A stretch of 64,000 nucleotides of DNA from Donghicola eburneus (GTDB lineage: Bacteria; Pseudomonadota; Alphaproteobacteria; Rhodobacterales; Rhodobacteraceae). Location of the stretch: NCBI RefSeq assembly GCF_900115865.1, contig NZ_FOXY01000003.1:124001-188000 (forward strand). The letters are read 5' to 3'. Below are positions 3,393 to 11,786 of this stretch, one piece after another. Position 1 is the stretch's first letter, and each line of letters starts with the position of its first letter. The translations under genes and the position numbers were made by a program. The notes beneath the pieces are model-generated. The model ran no database searches. It was not told the DNA's origin and was given only the letters and a program-made list of their open reading frames with translations.

Positions 3393-3791
3393 ATGTCCAT
3401 TGCCCTAGCACGATCGCGCTATCGCCAAGCCCAATCCGCGAACGCGGCCGAGGTCGACAATCCGCACGAGATTATCCTTGTTACCCTACGAGAGCTCGAA
3501 CGGTCCCTGTCGGTTTTGGCGACCTCGTTCGGCGAAGGAGTGAAGGCGCCGGACGAACATACCAGCCGCGCCCTAACCGCGATCTACATTCTGCAGTCCT
3601 CTTTGGACTTTGAAAAAGGCGGCGACATCGCAACAAGCCTGTTCCAGCTGTACGAATATTCGCGCCAGCAGATCCTGGCACTGATGCGCCGCGATCCCGA
3701 GGCACAGATTGTTGCGGCCCGCGATTGCATCTCGGACGTGATGTCTGCATGGCGCCAGATTGGCCCCGAAGTCGGGGGTAAACCGTCGTGA
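3393..3791 (+). CDS. fliS: Flagellin export chaperone FliS
   Basis: A 132-aa protein of the usual FliS length. FliS binds the C-terminus of flagellin in the cytoplasm and stops premature polymerisation before export. The all-helical pattern and the signature stretch FEKGGDIATSLFQLYEYSRQ (near residues 71-90) match the family, as does the closing SDVMSAWRQI. The start is supported by GAAGGAG eight bases upstream. It overlaps the next gene by four bases, so the two are probably co-translated, like fliS-fliT in other bacteria. The N-terminal TASPxEL segment is degenerate (DNPHEIILVTLRELE). Confidence 0.85.
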   Translation: MSIALARSRYRQAQSANAAEVDNPHEIILVTLRELERSLSVLATSFGEGVKAPDEHTSRALTAIYILQSSLDFEKGGDIATSLFQLYEYSRQQILALMRRDPEAQIVAARDCISDVMSAWRQIGPEVGGKPS

Positions 3792-4114
3792 GCAGTGATC
3801 TGGTCCGGCATATGACATCGGCCCAGTCGCTCGAGCGACTGTCCGATATCGCGCAGCGCCTAGAGTTGGCCGCAAACGCGGGCGCTCTGGACGAGGTCGC
3901 GCGGCTGGACCACGAGCTGCGGTGCGCGGCGCTGGCGGTTGTTGGCACGGTGCCAAAGGGCGAAGCCCCATTGGTCGAGCAGCTGGAATCCGTCAGAGAT
4001 GCGCTCAAAGCAATCGAGCTTGCGATATCGTCGGTGAAGCTACAGCAAAAACAATTGAAACATAAAATAGACCAGTCACGCCGGTTGCGTCTGGCCTACA
4101 AGCGCAAGGATTGA
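3788..4114 (+). CDS. FliT-like small helical protein
   Basis: A 108-aa, Leu/Ala-rich, fully helical protein that starts with GTG inside the fliS stop codon (4-base overlap). Its position after fliS, size and heptad-like C-terminal half (about 60-105, ending in a Lys/Arg-rich tail) are what is expected of a FliT-type export chaperone. Sequence identity to FliT cannot be shown by eye, so the role is inferred from context. The next gene begins three bases later. Confidence 0.55.
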   Translation: MSSDLVRHMTSAQSLERLSDIAQRLELAANAGALDEVARLDHELRCAALAVVGTVPKGEAPLVEQLESVRDALKAIELAISSVKLQQKQLKHKIDQSRRLRLAYKRKD

Positions 4115-4117
4115 GCC

Positions 4118-4333
4118 ATGGCATTGCTCGGTAAACCCTGCCGTTCTTGCATGCGCATTCGCGTTTTCATGATGTGTGCGCTACCCATCGTGATCCTGAT
4201 CGGCCTGCGACCCGAGGGCGTGGTCCGTCTGGCTGGCTTGGTGCCTGATGCGGGCTGGATTGCAACCGCTATGATGGTTGTTGGTAGTATCAGCTTCATC
4301 GTCAAATATAGAAAATACAAAAGCCAGAGCTGA
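4118..4333 (+). CDS. Small membrane protein of unknown function
   Basis: A 71-aa protein with two hydrophobic segments (about residues 14-29 and 45-61), a CRSC motif near the N-terminus and a basic C-terminal tail (KYRKYK). It starts three bases after the FliT-like gene, and its stop codon lies in the operon terminator, so it is the third gene of the fliS operon. No family is recognised. Co-transcription with export chaperones hints at a membrane role in flagellar assembly, but nothing in the sequence proves this. Confidence 0.6.
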   Translation: MALLGKPCRSCMRIRVFMMCALPIVILIGLRPEGVVRLAGLVPDAGWIATAMMVVGSISFIVKYRKYKSQS

Positions 4334-4354
4334 GGGACATCCTCAGGTCTGGCT
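4322..4354 (+). terminator. Stem-loop ending the fliS operon
   Basis: A 14-bp stem with one mismatch (AGCCAGAGCTGAGG / CCTCAGGTCTGGCT, loop GACAT) overlaps the stop codon of the 71-aa gene and is followed by TTGAT, a weak T-tract. Confidence 0.65.
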
Positions 4355-4380
4355 TTGATCTTGTCGCGGATGTGTGAGGG

Positions 4381-4542
4381 TTAGCCGATCCGCAGAGGTG
4401 TCTTGAGCGCTTCGACCAGCGAAGTGAGCGACACACGCTTGCGGTTCCGAGGGGCACCGTTCTTATCGCAGAAAACGGTTTCCACCATCATCACAGGCGC
4501 GGGCGTGGCGGGTGCGGTTTTGGGGTCGTAGATCATGTTCAT
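4381..4542 (-). CDS. 53-aa small protein with its own sigma-54-like promoter
   Basis: This ORF encodes 53 residues beginning MNMIYDPKTAPATPAPVM and ending LVEALKTPLRIG. It has a well-placed AGGAGA ribosome-binding site seven bases before the ATG and a near-consensus -24/-12 element about 34 bases upstream. The N-terminal half is Pro/Ala-rich with one Cys (FCDKNGAPRNRKR), and the C-terminal part could form a short helix. No signal peptide or membrane segment is visible and no family is recognised. It lies downstream of the fliL-like gene on the same strand, inside the flagellar block. The RBS and promoter argue that it is a real gene. Confidence 0.65.
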   Translation of the reverse strand: MNMIYDPKTAPATPAPVMMVETVFCDKNGAPRNRKRVSLTSLVEALKTPLRIG

Positions 4543-4575
4543 GGCAGGGTCTCCTGTGTCTCTTGATAGAAACCC

Positions 4576-4591
4576 TGCAAGAGGCGGGCCA
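4576..4591 (-). promoter_or_regulatory. Sigma-54 (-24/-12) promoter for the 53-aa ORF
   Basis: On the minus strand the sequence is TGGCCCGCCTCTTGCA, which differs from the consensus TGGCACG-N4-TTGCA at one -24 base. GG and GC are ten bases apart. The -12 element is about 34 bases from the ATG at 4542. Confidence 0.65.
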
Positions 4592-4593
4592 AT

Positions 4594-5103
4594 TTAGCCG
4601 CCTATGGTGAAATTCAGGATCAGGACCTCGTAAACCGGATTTGGGCGGTCTTCAGAAGTCAGTTCGACGTTCATTTTGTCGCGGATCACCGCAGGCAGCT
4701 CAGCACGCAAATCCTGCCAGTCACTGTCCGGAGGCATCTGGTCTACCAGATCCTGAACAGCGTCCGTCATGGGCGCCATAAGCGGGCCCGGATTATCCTT
4801 AAGCATATCGTAGACCTTTTTGCCGACATCCTCGCGGATCGCGAGCCCTATGTTGATCAGGACGGTCCCGCCAAGCTGGGGCAGGGTCGCTTTGATCGGG
4901 TTGATGATGTCGATATAAGTCCGATCCGGCAGGTCCTCTGTCTCTTCTTCCAACACCTCTTCCTCAACAATTTCAGGTTCGGGAAGATCGGGTTTGGCTG
5001 TCAGAGAAAAGTACAGACCGCCCCCAAAGGCCCCGACCACAACAATGGCGGGGAGGATGGTGAGCAGGATGCTGGCTTTGGATGAAATCGGCTCGGCCGA
5101 CAT
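4594..5103 (-). CDS. FliL-like flagellar basal body-associated protein
   Basis: A 169-aa single-pass membrane protein: short cytoplasmic N-terminus, one transmembrane segment (about residues 11-33), an acidic linker rich in Glu (about 40-56), then a periplasmic domain ending VYEVLILNFTIGG, which resembles the FliL end (VxxVxFxxFxxQ). FliL associates with the stator around the motor and affects torque. The start at 5103 was chosen because GGAGG lies just upstream; the frame extends further but without an RBS. A sigma-54 -24/-12 element precedes it. The match to FliL is moderate, resting on topology, length and C-terminal pattern. Confidence 0.6.
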   Translation of the reverse strand: MSAEPISSKASILLTILPAIVVVGAFGGGLYFSLTAKPDLPEPEIVEEEVLEEETEDLPDRTYIDIINPIKATLPQLGGTVLINIGLAIREDVGKKVYDMLKDNPGPLMAPMTDAVQDLVDQMPPDSDWQDLRAELPAVIRDKMNVELTSEDRPNPVYEVLILNFTIGG

Positions 5104-5145: not shown

Positions 5146-5161
5146 TGCAAGGCAGGTGCCA
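5146..5161 (-). promoter_or_regulatory. Sigma-54 (-24/-12) promoter of the fliL-like gene
   Basis: The minus-strand sequence TGGCACCTGCCTTGCA matches TGGCACG-N4-TTGCA except for one base after TGGCAC, with GG/GC spacing of ten. It lies about 43 bases upstream of the start at 5103. Confidence 0.75.
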
Positions 5162-5267: not shown

Positions 5268-5717
5268 ATGGCATTCGCTATGAAATGGGCGCTGGCCCCA
5301 TTCAGGCTTTTGTTTGGACGTGGCGTACGAACGCCCACGGCCGAGGTGTTGCCTGCGGATCCGGACTGGACGCCGCCCCCTGCGGCAGAAGCTCAGGGCA
5401 CCTTGCCTGCCGAAGAATTTGTGCTGGTCGAACGGATCACCCGCCTGATGACGCTGGATGAGATTGAGCGTCACCTGCCTGACATTCTGGGCCGCGCGCT
5501 AGCGCGTGGCTGGATCGACAAACCTTTTCAATCGGCGTTCATGGATGACCCCAAGCGGATGCTGGCGACTTATGATGTGCACCTGCCAGACGCGGTCGAG
5601 ATCGAGGTCGAGACCGAGCCAGGAAAGCGCCCGCGGATTGTGGTCTACCAGATCAGCCTTGGCGGCCGGAAGCGGCGGCTCTTGTATCTACAGCTCGTGA
5701 TGATGGCGGGACGATGA
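5268..5717 (+). CDS. Unknown protein with NHLP/nitrile-hydratase-alpha-like domain
   Basis: A 149-aa protein divergent from the fliL-like gene and overlapping the next gene by four bases. After a hydrophobic, basic N-terminus (FAMKWALAPFRLLFGR) and a Pro-rich stretch, residues about 60-140 read as D-x-F-x-x-x-F-M-x-D-P-x-x-x-L, then LPDAVEIEVE. That layout (aspartate/phenylalanine, xxDPxxxL, LPxxVxxxV) is like the N-terminal domain of nitrile hydratase alpha and the NHLP leader-peptide domain. There is no metal-binding CxxCSC motif and no Gly-Gly cleavage site. The resemblance is by eye; function is unknown. The location suggests a flagellar regulon link. Confidence 0.65.
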   Translation: MAFAMKWALAPFRLLFGRGVRTPTAEVLPADPDWTPPPAAEAQGTLPAEEFVLVERITRLMTLDEIERHLPDILGRALARGWIDKPFQSAFMDDPKRMLATYDVHLPDAVEIEVETEPGKRPRIVVYQISLGGRKRRLLYLQLVMMAGR

Positions 5718-6352: not shown

Positions 6353-6703
6353 TTAGTGGCGGCGGAAAGCCTGCATTGCCACCAGTTCATCGGCTGAAAT
6401 GCCGGTCTGGCGCGCAATCTCGGAGCCGCTTTCCCCTTCACGGGCCATGTTGATGGCCTGATCAATCATGCGTTCGCTGGTCAGCCACTGGATGTCTGAG
6501 CGCATGTCTTTGATCTCGGTGGCAATTGCTTCGATCGTTGCTCCGATCTTGGCCTGTTCCTCGGCAACGTTGGCCAGGACTGCCTTTTCGGCTTTGGTCG
6601 CGGATTTCTGGGCACGCTTACGGCGCAGGGCGACATAGGCACCACCCGCCAGAAGAGTGGAAACTGCTGCGGCGGTGGTCAAAAGGATCAGTTCGCTGGT
6701 CAC
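6353..6703 (-). CDS. Membrane-anchored coiled-coil protein with HTH-like tail
   Basis: A 116-aa protein: N-terminal transmembrane helix (about residues 4-26), a basic turn (RRKRAQK), a coiled-coil (about 37-75) and a C-terminal helical pair, IARQTGISADELVAMQAF, that reads like a minimal helix-turn-helix. It is the last gene of the flgP-flgT-flgA-flgM group, 38 bases after flgM, and ends immediately next to the convergent Sel1 gene. No family name can be assigned. It might be a membrane-tethered adaptor. Confidence 0.6.
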   Translation of the reverse strand: MTSELILLTTAAAVSTLLAGGAYVALRRKRAQKSATKAEKAVLANVAEEQAKIGATIEAIATEIKDMRSDIQWLTSERMIDQAINMAREGESGSEIARQTGISADELVAMQAFRRH

Positions 6704-6741: not shown

Positions 6742-7047
6742 TTAGAGCATCAGCTCACGGTAGCCTTCGAAGAGGCTGTCCGTGATCCGGTCCAGATCGA
6801 CAGGGTAGTTGCCCTGCGAAATGGCATCCTTGATGCGCTTCACGGCTTCGACGTCGAACGGCGGGCTCGTTTCGTCGACGCCAGCAGGCATCTGGGCCAC
6901 AGCGGCACTGAGCGACACGCTGTCAGTTGCAGCGGGCGCGTTGACGCTCGTTGAACCCTCGGCACCTTTGGAGCTTTGGGCGGGCGTATCACCCTGCGTC
7001 TTTTGAATTCGGGCGCGGGCGAGGGACGGATTGATGGAGTCTACCAT
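6742..7047 (-). CDS. flgM: Anti-sigma-28 factor FlgM
   Basis: A 101-aa protein with an unstructured, Ala/Ser/Thr-rich N-terminal half and the characteristic C-terminal FliA-binding region: VSLSAAVAQM, then VEAVKRIKDAISQGNYPVDL and DRITDSLFEGYREL. FlgM holds FliA inactive until the hook is complete, then leaves through the export gate. The start at 7047 was chosen for its GAGGAGAA ribosome-binding site; the frame continues upstream without one. It lies downstream of flgA, the usual neighbour, and its target fliA is encoded in this window at 12850-13560. Confidence 0.85.
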   Translation of the reverse strand: MVDSINPSLARARIQKTQGDTPAQSSKGAEGSTSVNAPAATDSVSLSAAVAQMPAGVDETSPPFDVEAVKRIKDAISQGNYPVDLDRITDSLFEGYRELML

Positions 7048-9668: not shown

Positions 9669-11786
9669 ATGGCTGACATTTCAAATCCTTCGGCGACAGA
9701 GAAGATGGGCGGCATGTTCCTGCCCTTAGGCATTCTGGCGATGATCGCCATGATGGTCCTGCCGCTGCCGGTATTCCTGCTCGACGTTTTCTTTGTATTT
9801 AACATCCTGCTGTCGCTGCTCGTGCTGATGGTTGCGATCAACACCTACAAGCCGCTGGACTTCAGCAGTTTCCCCAGCCTTTTGCTAATGGCGACCACCC
9901 TGCGACTGGCCTTGAACGTGGCCTCGACCCGTATCGTTCTGACCGACGGCCACACGGGCGCTGGCGCTGCGGGCAAGGTGATCGAGGCCTTTGGTGCCTT
10001 TGTCATCGGCGGTAACTTTGCGGTTGGTATCGTCGTCTTTATCATCCTGATGATCATCAACCTTGTGGTGATTACCAAAGGTGCGGGCCGCGTGTCCGAA
10101 GTCTCGGCGCGCTTCACTCTGGACGCGATGCCAGGCAAGCAGATGGCAATCGACGCCGACCTGAACGCTGGCATCATGAGCCCCGAAGATGCGCGCGCGC
10201 GTCGCAAGGAGGTCGCGGAAGAGGCTGATTTCTACGGGGCCATGGACGGTGCATCGAAGTTTGTCAAAGGTGACGCCGTTGCCGGTATCATGATCCTCGC
10301 GGCCAACATCTTGGGCGGTATCATCATCGGTACCACTCAATATGGATTGTCGGCTGGAACCGCGGCAGAGACCTATGTTCTGCTGTCGATCGGTGACGGT
10401 CTGGTTGCTCAGATCCCGTCGCTGCTTCTCTCGATCGCGACTGCAATCATCGTGACGCGCGTTTCGGGCGAGGCTGACATGGCCGAGCACATTACCGAAC
10501 AGGTCAACATCAGCCGCGCATGGCTACCCGTTGCAGGTGTAATGGCCCTGCTGGGGATGGTTCCTGGCATGCCCAATATCCTGTTCCTCTTGGGGGCGTC
10601 TGGTGCGGGTGCGGCCTACTGGTATTCTCGCCAAAACGAGATCAATCCCAAACAGGACGAGGCATCTGGCGGTGCCAATCTGCCCGCCCTTCCGGGCGCT
10701 GAAGGCGAGGCGCAAAACAGCGGGACCATTACTGCAGAAGAGGTCACCGACTACGCACCCATCTCAATCCAGATCGGCTTTGGTCTGGTCGGAATGATCG
10801 ATACCGCGTCGGGCGGAGAGCTGTTGTCGCGCATTACCGGCATTCGCCGCGAGGTGTCGAAATCCATGGGCTTCGTGGTGCCTGGCGTGCGTATCCGCGA
10901 CGACCTGAACCTGCCTTCGAACACCTATCGCATCCGCATTGGTCAGGCGATTGTGGCCGAGGATACCGTCTACCCAGACCGTATTCTGGCCCTACAGGGC
11001 GGTATGTCGACCAAGAAACTGAAGGGCGTAGATGTCAAAGATCCGTCATTCGGTATGGATGCGACGTGGATCATGCCCCATCAGCGCGCCGAGGCCGAAG
11101 CCGACGATCATGTGGTGGTCGAGCCCGACTCTGTCATTGCGACCCACCTGAGCCAGATGCTGTACCAGCACGCGGCCAACCTGATTGGCCCCGACGATGT
11201 CCAAGGTCTGCTTGATCGTCTGGCAGAGGTCAGCCCCACACTGGTCGAGTCGGTCGTCCCCAAGCCCGTGCCGCTGCACACCGTCACCTCTGTCATGCGT
11301 CATCTGCTGTCCGAACGTATTCCTGTCAGCGATTTGCGCAGAATCTTGGAAGGATTGGCCGATGTGGCAAGCCGTTTGCAAGACCCCCAAGACATGGCCG
11401 AGGCTCTGCGCCCCGCACTGACGCCGCTCTTGCTGCAACAGATCGCGCCGCTGAACCAAAACCTGCCTTTGATCACGCTGTCGCCTGACTTCGAAGAGCT
11501 GCTGACTCGCAGCTACCAGAAAGGGGCGGGGCTGATCGTGGATCAGGGCCTGACCCAGCAGATGCTGCAGGCGCTGAACCAGGCAAACGAAGAGATGCTC
11601 TCTCAGGGGCGGCAGCCCGTGGTGATCGTCTCGAATGCGCTGCGTAGACCCTTTGCGGGCTTCCTGCGTGGACATGGCAGCGATGCCATTGTGCTGGCGG
11701 TGAATGAACTGCCGGACAACCGCAAGATCGAAATCGTGGCCACCGTGGGCGGAAATCGCCAAATCGGTCAGGCCCCCCAGAACTGA
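9669..11786 (+). CDS. flhA: Flagellar export gate protein FlhA
   Basis: A 705-aa inner-membrane component of the flagellar type III export apparatus; it conducts protons and docks substrate-chaperone complexes on its cytoplasmic ring. Eight hydrophobic segments occupy about residues 18-320. The conserved FHIPEP-type loop (SARFTLDAMPGKQMAIDADLN, about 145-165) is present, followed by the large cytoplasmic domain (about 370-705). Length is typical. The start at 9669 (MADISNPS) gives the usual N-terminus; the frame continues upstream but into the promoter. It heads the flhA-flhF-fliA operon. Confidence 0.95.
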   Translation: MADISNPSATEKMGGMFLPLGILAMIAMMVLPLPVFLLDVFFVFNILLSLLVLMVAINTYKPLDFSSFPSLLLMATTLRLALNVASTRIVLTDGHTGAGAAGKVIEAFGAFVIGGNFAVGIVVFIILMIINLVVITKGAGRVSEVSARFTLDAMPGKQMAIDADLNAGIMSPEDARARRKEVAEEADFYGAMDGASKFVKGDAVAGIMILAANILGGIIIGTTQYGLSAGTAAETYVLLSIGDGLVAQIPSLLLSIATAIIVTRVSGEADMAEHITEQVNISRAWLPVAGVMALLGMVPGMPNILFLLGASGAGAAYWYSRQNEINPKQDEASGGANLPALPGAEGEAQNSGTITAEEVTDYAPISIQIGFGLVGMIDTASGGELLSRITGIRREVSKSMGFVVPGVRIRDDLNLPSNTYRIRIGQAIVAEDTVYPDRILALQGGMSTKKLKGVDVKDPSFGMDATWIMPHQRAEAEADDHVVVEPDSVIATHLSQMLYQHAANLIGPDDVQGLLDRLAEVSPTLVESVVPKPVPLHTVTSVMRHLLSERIPVSDLRRILEGLADVASRLQDPQDMAEALRPALTPLLLQQIAPLNQNLPLITLSPDFEELLTRSYQKGAGLIVDQGLTQQMLQALNQANEEMLSQGRQPVVIVSNALRRPFAGFLRGHGSDAIVLAVNELPDNRKIEIVATVGGNRQIGQAPQN

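Follow-up and report, generated by a model that had tools for sequence, protein, structure and literature searches.

The flagellar cluster of the marine bacterium Donghicola eburneus contains a 53-codon open reading frame (ORF) that is almost certainly a real coding gene, and that very probably has a sigma-54 promoter of its own. Its sequence is best read as that of an orphan gene for a flagellar micro-protein within a known kind, the sigma-54 flagellar accessory genes. The best explanation overall, to which we give a probability of about 0.5, is that it is an autonomous gene of a sigma-54 flagellar system of the Fla1 kind, whose product would serve as an accessory or assembly factor.

The small ORF lies on the minus strand at positions 4381-4542 of the window (the whole 64,000-nucleotide stretch of DNA analysed here), starts with ATG and encodes the 53-residue protein MNMIYDPKTAPATPAPVMMVETVFCDKNGAPRNRKRVSLTSLVEALKTPLRIG. 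A ribosome-binding site, AGGAG, can be read directly in the sequence at 4551-4555 (minus strand), 8 nt 5' of the start codon. Upstream of this, at 4576-4591 on the same strand, is a -24/-12 element of the sigma-54 type, TGGCCCGCCTCTTGCA. Sites were scored against the sigma-54 consensus TGGCAC-N5-TTGCA; the element matches it at 10 of 11 positions, with the GG and the GC intact and the spacing exact, and its -12 C is 35 nt before the ATG. On the other side of the ORF is a terminator-like hairpin (about 4320-4355, strand not assigned), with a stability of -24.2 kcal/mol (z -4.98) that none of 200 shuffled sequences equalled. It separates the small ORF from the convergent gene on the plus strand, which encodes a 71-residue DsbB-like protein and whose 3' end it overlaps. 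The order along the minus strand is a FliL-like gene, a 51-nt gap containing both TGGCCCGCCTCTTGCA and the AGGAG, the small ORF and the hairpin, and the unit reads as a promoter, 53 codons and a terminator. The original prediction had described a 53-codon ORF with a good ribosome-binding site and, about 34 bases upstream, a -24/-12 element with one mismatch, and had proposed a tiny gene with its own sigma-54 promoter in a flagellar block. At the level of sequence, all of this is upheld; the minus-strand assignment, the hairpin and the perfect element before the FliL-like gene go beyond that prediction, and the regulatory or assembly role that it also suggested is treated below as a proposal.

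The coding character of the frame was assessed from its conservation. The proteins of the Donghicola congeners are 85, 75 and 62% identical to that of the window. The three equal-length Donghicola pairs have 8, 14 and 16 amino acid changes, where permutation gives means of 18.1, 24.0 and 27.1; in each pair none of 20,000 permutations was as conservative, in a test that ignores mutation bias. Of the six frames, the true one has the highest identity in three Donghicola pairs (0.85, 0.74 and 0.70), although in one pair an antisense frame comes close, at 0.73 vs 0.74. The dN/dS of the small ORF is 0.19-0.48 over six Donghicola pairs, the adjacent FliL-like gene having values of 0.08-0.42, and in the closest pair 18 of the 27 changes are at third positions, the most of any position. 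Conservation of the frame, judged by synonymous against non-synonymous changes as the original prediction had suggested, stands out clearly among the Donghicola genomes; the signal is weak in the genus of genome G077, where five pairs have a dN/dS of 0.43-0.78 and the closest gives a permutation P of 0.03.

A site matching at least 10 of the 11 consensus positions occurs by chance in 75 upstream bases with a frequency of 0.0008 (4,000 dinucleotide shuffles). There are five such sites in the 64-kb window, all in the first 11.4 kb, which is the flagellar end. The site TGGCAAGCCGTTTGCA (10/11; 11365-11380, plus strand) is inside the coding region of flhA, and is probably a chance match. Genome-wide there are eight perfect TGGCACN5TTGCA sites, five of them in the flagellar region of the contig that contains the window, against none for the reversed control pattern. 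The TGGCCC... variant found in the window is also present at C14:90,694, before a gene read as sltF, the site being only 13 nt before the start chosen by script for that gene, which makes it a doubtful case. The genome has a single Sigma54_DBD match, rpoN (C14:99262), and the best two of its 15 matches to activator domains (C14:115827 and C14:91756) are both inside the flagellar cluster.

The small-gene family has 16 members and one probable member (G224), from 10 genera. A 4-row profile of the protein matched 10 of the 394 genomes of the host's family at E <= 0.01, and the small genes of G187 and G030 are in the same place, beside the FliL-like gene. The FliL-like gene, used as an anchor, was found in 9 of the 394 genomes; the loci beside these matches confirmed the gene of G077 and added those of G123 and G130, and in G033 there was no small gene beside the anchor match. 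In the genus of G077, which is probably Cereibacter, with G077 itself probably C. sphaeroides 2.4.1, a member was present in all five genomes searched. A 13-row profile matched 16 of the 394 genomes at E <= 0.01, seven of them strongly (E < 1e-17). G200 (E 0.003 in this search) was confirmed by its locus, and the matches in G012, G013, G033, G091, G144, G326, G334 and G415 (E 0.0007-0.009) are left out of the member count. G285, G367 and G224 were not listed by the 13-row genome search. When stretches fetched from the genomes were searched with the profile, G367 (E 0.0013), G200 (E 0.0005) and G285 (E 0.013) were found; these E-values are modest, and each of the three small genes is beside fliS with an element upstream.

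The 39-residue form in G224 surfaced in a scan for elements with short ORFs and was picked by eye; the pattern of the scan itself missed it. With a profile E of 0.11-1.2, it is regarded as a probable member. In G224 (L127 4225-6090, minus strand) flgA and flgT each match in two frames, flgT with an in-frame stop. These broken frames reflect either a decaying cluster or assembly errors, and if the cluster is decaying the 39-residue form may be truncated. A conserved -24/-12 element can flag genes that are too diverged for profile searches, and the probable G224 member is a case of this. A tblastn search of plasmids with the small ORF gave no matches, and a peptide-pattern scan of genome contigs gave 590 pattern stretches, none of which was confirmed as the small protein.

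FlgT is matched in 26 of 355 genomes, and 11 of these 26, including G224, have a member of the small-gene family; around flgT in the other 15 carriers about 11-20 kb were read, and somewhat more for G249, G301 and G294. The flagellar plasmid pOA238_118 of Octadecabacter arcticus, searched over all but its first 3.4 kb, contained no member (best E 0.74). Judging from these two results, the small gene does not belong to the core of all flagella of this kind. The same plasmid (NC_020909.1; L061, L123) has a flagellar cluster that contains rpoN, with a CBS-domain gene after the gene in the FliT position.

An element was called before a member where at least 9 of the 11 positions matched with the GG and GC intact. 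It precedes the small ORF in 15 of the 16 members that were found via the protein, and also in G224, which was found via the element. It is present in eight of the nine genera whose members came from protein searches, and frame and element are conserved jointly in 9 of the 10 genera. The distance from the -12 C to the ATG is 29-51 nt in 13 of the 15 element-bearing members and 68-72 nt in G367 and G422; in G224 it is 49 nt, as counted by eye. In shuffled upstream stretches, the chance frequency of a site of at least 9/11 is 0.0005-0.018 per genome (13 genomes tested). In G030 the 36-nt gap before the small gene has no element and the FliL-like gene has one, and here the small gene may use the promoter of the FliL-like gene.

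The contig is 448 kb long, and an extensive flagellar cluster occupies it from about 80 to 138 kb. From a reading of its ORFs, which is only partly backed by profiles, the cluster has hook, rod and ring genes, fliD, motAB, fliC, rpoN, flhB to fliK, fliJ to fliE, two activator genes, chemotaxis genes, fliS, flgM, flgA, flgT, an LPP20-type flgP-like gene, flhA, flhF and fliA. On the plus strand near the small ORF are fliS (3393-3791; PF02561, E 5e-16), a gene directly after it, in the fliT position, for a 108-residue protein that matches no family (3788-4114), and the convergent gene for a 71-residue CxxC protein that is weakly DsbB-like (4118-4333; PF02600, E 0.0027, below the cut-off). In one genome read per genus, fliS was no more than 0.7 kb from the small ORF in all ten, the FliL-like gene being counted in eight and the DsbB-like gene in seven.

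Other small genes in the neighbourhood are also of interest. The CxxC/DsbB-like protein is possibly another unstudied flagellar micro-protein. A 149-residue protein, encoded next to the FliL-like gene (5268-5717, plus strand), resembles NHLP leaders (TIGR03793, E 1.5e-6, below the cut-off), which is odd for a flagellar gene, and has relatives in many of the flagellar stretches read. Beside flgM, a 116-residue protein (6353-6703, minus strand) has a weak match to DUF2802 (E 0.00022, below the cut-off), and has relatives in several stretches.

In its architecture, the Donghicola cluster resembles the Fla1 system of R. sphaeroides, which is described as laterally acquired, as driven by RpoN2 together with FleQ and FleT, and as having FlgT and FlgP (PMC7277832). 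In a survey of Rhodobacterales, C. sphaeroides 2.4.1 is the fla3 reference, and fla3 accounts for 23 of 284 clusters (PMC11974857); the accessible part of this survey makes no mention of Donghicola, so that the assignment of its cluster to the fla3 type is one that we infer. The two papers disagree, in the text available, on the donor of the Fla1/fla3 system (PMC7277832; PMC11974857). The sigma-54 class III genes of R. sphaeroides Fla1 have the same class of promoter, in a cluster that likewise has an rpoN of its own and a pair of activators, but those described are known structural or regulatory genes (PMC7277832), whereas the small gene is an orphan, of which G077 carries a member.

The small protein of the window matches no profile in Pfam, NCBIfam or PHROGs, those of FlgM, FliS and FliT included. 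When 13 members were compared with profiles (NCBIfam being run on the window protein only), one matched DUF3426 (E 0.0029), and each of four PHROGs was hit by a single member (E 0.069-0.25). A sequence search of the PDB gave a single match, at E 0.58, and a Foldseek search with the predicted model gave none at E 0.001, the best being at E 1.8. The AlphaFold model, based on four sequences, has a mean pLDDT of 78.1 and a pTM of 0.40, with block means of 92 and 90 over residues 21-40. It consists of a loose N-terminus, two strands (residues 19-25 and 31-38) and a helix (39-47), and the protein is accordingly predicted to fold as a β-hairpin followed by a short helix. FlgM, FliS and FliT-type proteins are likewise small proteins of flagellar clusters, but they are encoded separately nearby, and they are mainly helical, unlike the hairpin and helix modelled here. 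The maximum hydropathy over 15 residues ranges from 0.07 to 1.85 among the 16 members and is 1.04 for the window protein, which from its sequence looks soluble and is probably cytoplasmic; the high values in G187 (1.85) and G130 (1.75) make contact with the membrane possible.

We propose that sigma-54 RNA polymerase, together with the enhancer-binding proteins of the cluster itself, would produce a short monocistronic mRNA from the small gene, starting at about 4565 and ending at the hairpin at about 4320, and thus about 245 nt long with a leader of about 23 nt. Translation of this mRNA would give a small and probably cytoplasmic protein, composed of a β-hairpin and a short helix. The hairpin would bind a flagellar partner, and the protein may act as an accessory or assembly factor that is made together with the hook-basal body genes, and that is possibly tied to the adjacent export cassette on the FliS side. 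We tentatively favour such an assembly or accessory role over regulation, and the tallies of the fliS, DsbB-like and FliL-like neighbours give a slight lean to assembly or export over a function at the stator.

A regulatory micro-protein is possible, if rather unlikely. Such a protein would be made at the sigma-54 stage and would feed back on activators of the FleQ/FleT type, on sigma-54 or on the FliA/FlgM switch, and in this way time the flagellar genes. The promoter of the small gene is of the same class as those of the putative targets, the gene is maintained as an autonomous unit through rearrangements, and several members have a basic stretch after the turn, all of which fit with regulation. 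However, the window protein has no family match, flgM is separately encoded nearby (as we read 6742-7047), and the net charge varies from -7 to +4 among the 16 members, which is odd for a protein that binds nucleic acid. A distinctly speculative proposal, which we think improbable as a whole, is that the proteins form a new micro-protein family with a minimal hairpin-helix core, down to 39 residues in the probable G224 form, specific to the sigma-54 flagellar clusters of Rhodobacterales and acting as a checkpoint or feedback factor at the assembly stage, the private promoter being kept through inversion or absence of the neighbours because the timing is the function.

The key control for the autonomy of the small gene and its element is the FliL-like neighbour. 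The neighbour (4594-5103, minus strand) encodes a protein of 169 residues, its start being set by conservation, with an N-terminal hydrophobic helix and a FliL/SPFH-like domain. Its model has a mean pLDDT of 67.5, and about 80 in the domain; its closest Foldseek matches, none of which reaches E <= 0.001, are to SPFH domains of stomatins and to Vibrio FliL, the best of them (6ahq; E 3.5e-3, probability 0.99). The match to the NCBIfam FliL profile is weak (E 0.029), and there was no match in Pfam, in the PDB by sequence or among plasmids. Searched across the class, a profile of the protein matched 3 of 385 genomes, these being its own and two of another family (E 1e-5 and 7e-5). The Pfam FliL match that clears the cut-off lies in another part of the cluster (C14:107,080), with a weaker one, below the cut-off, on contig C23.

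From the model, we take the neighbour to be a further relative of FliL, distinct both from canonical FliL and from MotF, whose gene in R. sphaeroides is presumably RSP_0067. Its identification as MotF was rejected, since MotF is a 24-kDa protein with a transmembrane segment at residues 54-74 (PMC7277832), and RSP_0067 follows flhB (RSP_0066) in the numbering (PMC9779115). MotF resembles the product proposed for the small ORF in being accessory, limited to some Rhodobacteraceae and part of the same kind of flagellar system, but it is much larger than 53 residues and has, besides the transmembrane segment, a periplasmic part (PMC7277832), as against a maximum hydropathy of 1.04 for the small protein, and the place of its gene is unlike that of the small ORF (PMC9779115).

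In the window, a perfect sigma-54 element, TGGCACCTGCCTTGCA (5146-5161, minus strand), is found upstream of the FliL-like gene. As a control, the best sigma-54 score in the 250 nt before the FliL-like gene was determined in the 15 genomes in which that gene adjoins the small gene. The score is 10-11 in six of them (a perfect element in the four Donghicola genomes, and one with a single mismatch in G187 and G030), and 7 or less in the other nine, in every one of which the small gene has an element. G367 has the FliL-like gene in inverted orientation, with the element lying on the strand of the small gene. In G285 a gene for a hybrid histidine kinase, with PAS, HisKA, HATPase and receiver domains (L125 13136-15601, minus strand), occupies the position expected for the FliL-like gene, and a perfect element precedes the small gene. 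In G224 the small gene faces the cassette of DsbB-like, FliT-position and FliS genes, and no FliL-like gene was found on its 13.6-kb contig (two stretches read). The absence in G285 and G224 applies to the stretches read around the small gene, and a copy elsewhere in these genomes could be overlooked, the whole-genome search having failed to list the FliL-like gene of G200 that was later found. Since 9 of the 15 FliL-like genes have no element where the small gene has one, and since the element is kept where the FliL-like gene is inverted or off the locus, we conclude that the element belongs to the small gene, which at the sequence level is shown to be autonomous from its neighbour. An element that serves a fliL-type operon alone was rejected as an explanation, on account of G367, G285 and G224 and of the comparison of neighbour promoters.

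The same data bear on the suggestion that the small protein works with the adjacent FliL-like protein in activating the stator. The FliL-like gene adjoins the small gene in 15 of 17 genomes, in one of these inverted, and in G030 the only element is that of the FliL-like gene, both of which speak for the suggestion. On the other hand, the stretches read around the small genes of G285 and G224 show no FliL-like gene, and in 9 of the 15 genomes the two genes do not have the promoter class in common, which makes a partnership of this kind quite doubtful. The short unit from promoter to terminator would also suit a small RNA, with the ORF either incidental or serving as a second function, but the changes among the Donghicola genes are concentrated at synonymous sites and the core of the protein is kept across genera, and we consider a mainly RNA function very unlikely. 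That the ORF and the -24/-12 match are products of chance or of decay downstream of the FliL-like gene can be all but dismissed, for even though the element is one mismatch off the consensus and small ORFs are common (113 of at least 40 residues overlap the first 14 kb of the window), frame and element are conserved jointly across genera.

Orphan proteins of flagellar clusters have precedents. The proteins CP1-CP4 of Phaeobacter inhibens are uncharacterised and specific to one type of Rhodobacterales cluster, as the small gene is likewise an orphan of its cluster, and they show that proteins of this sort can be indispensable for motility (PMC11974857). In the available part of that survey they are reported in fla1-type clusters only, and not in fla2 or fla3, which by description sets them apart from the small ORF (PMC11974857). 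Hypothetical genes are also found among the motility genes of R. sphaeroides, with which RSP_6086 to RSP_6091 are placed; RSP_6086, which is up by 3.33 log2 on overexpression of the sRNA UdsC, is among those that rise together with flagellar genes (PMC9779115). RSP_7527, the host gene of UdsC, was rejected as an equivalent of the small gene, its promoter being described as RpoHII-dependent (PMC9779115). In the open-licence PMC literature we found nothing on RSP_6088, and only PMC9779115 on RSP_6086, 6087, 6089, 6090 and 6091. The titles and abstract openings in the same literature gave no description of the small gene, which does not establish its absence from print.

With the small gene, a flagellar regulon of a well-studied kind gains a gene that has apparently not been studied. 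The presence of a member in every genome searched of what is probably Cereibacter opens its function to experiments in a laboratory model whose flagellar genetics are established. If the gene proves to be needed for motility or for timing, then current models both of the sigma-54/FleQ/FleT hierarchy and of Fla1 assembly would be missing a part.
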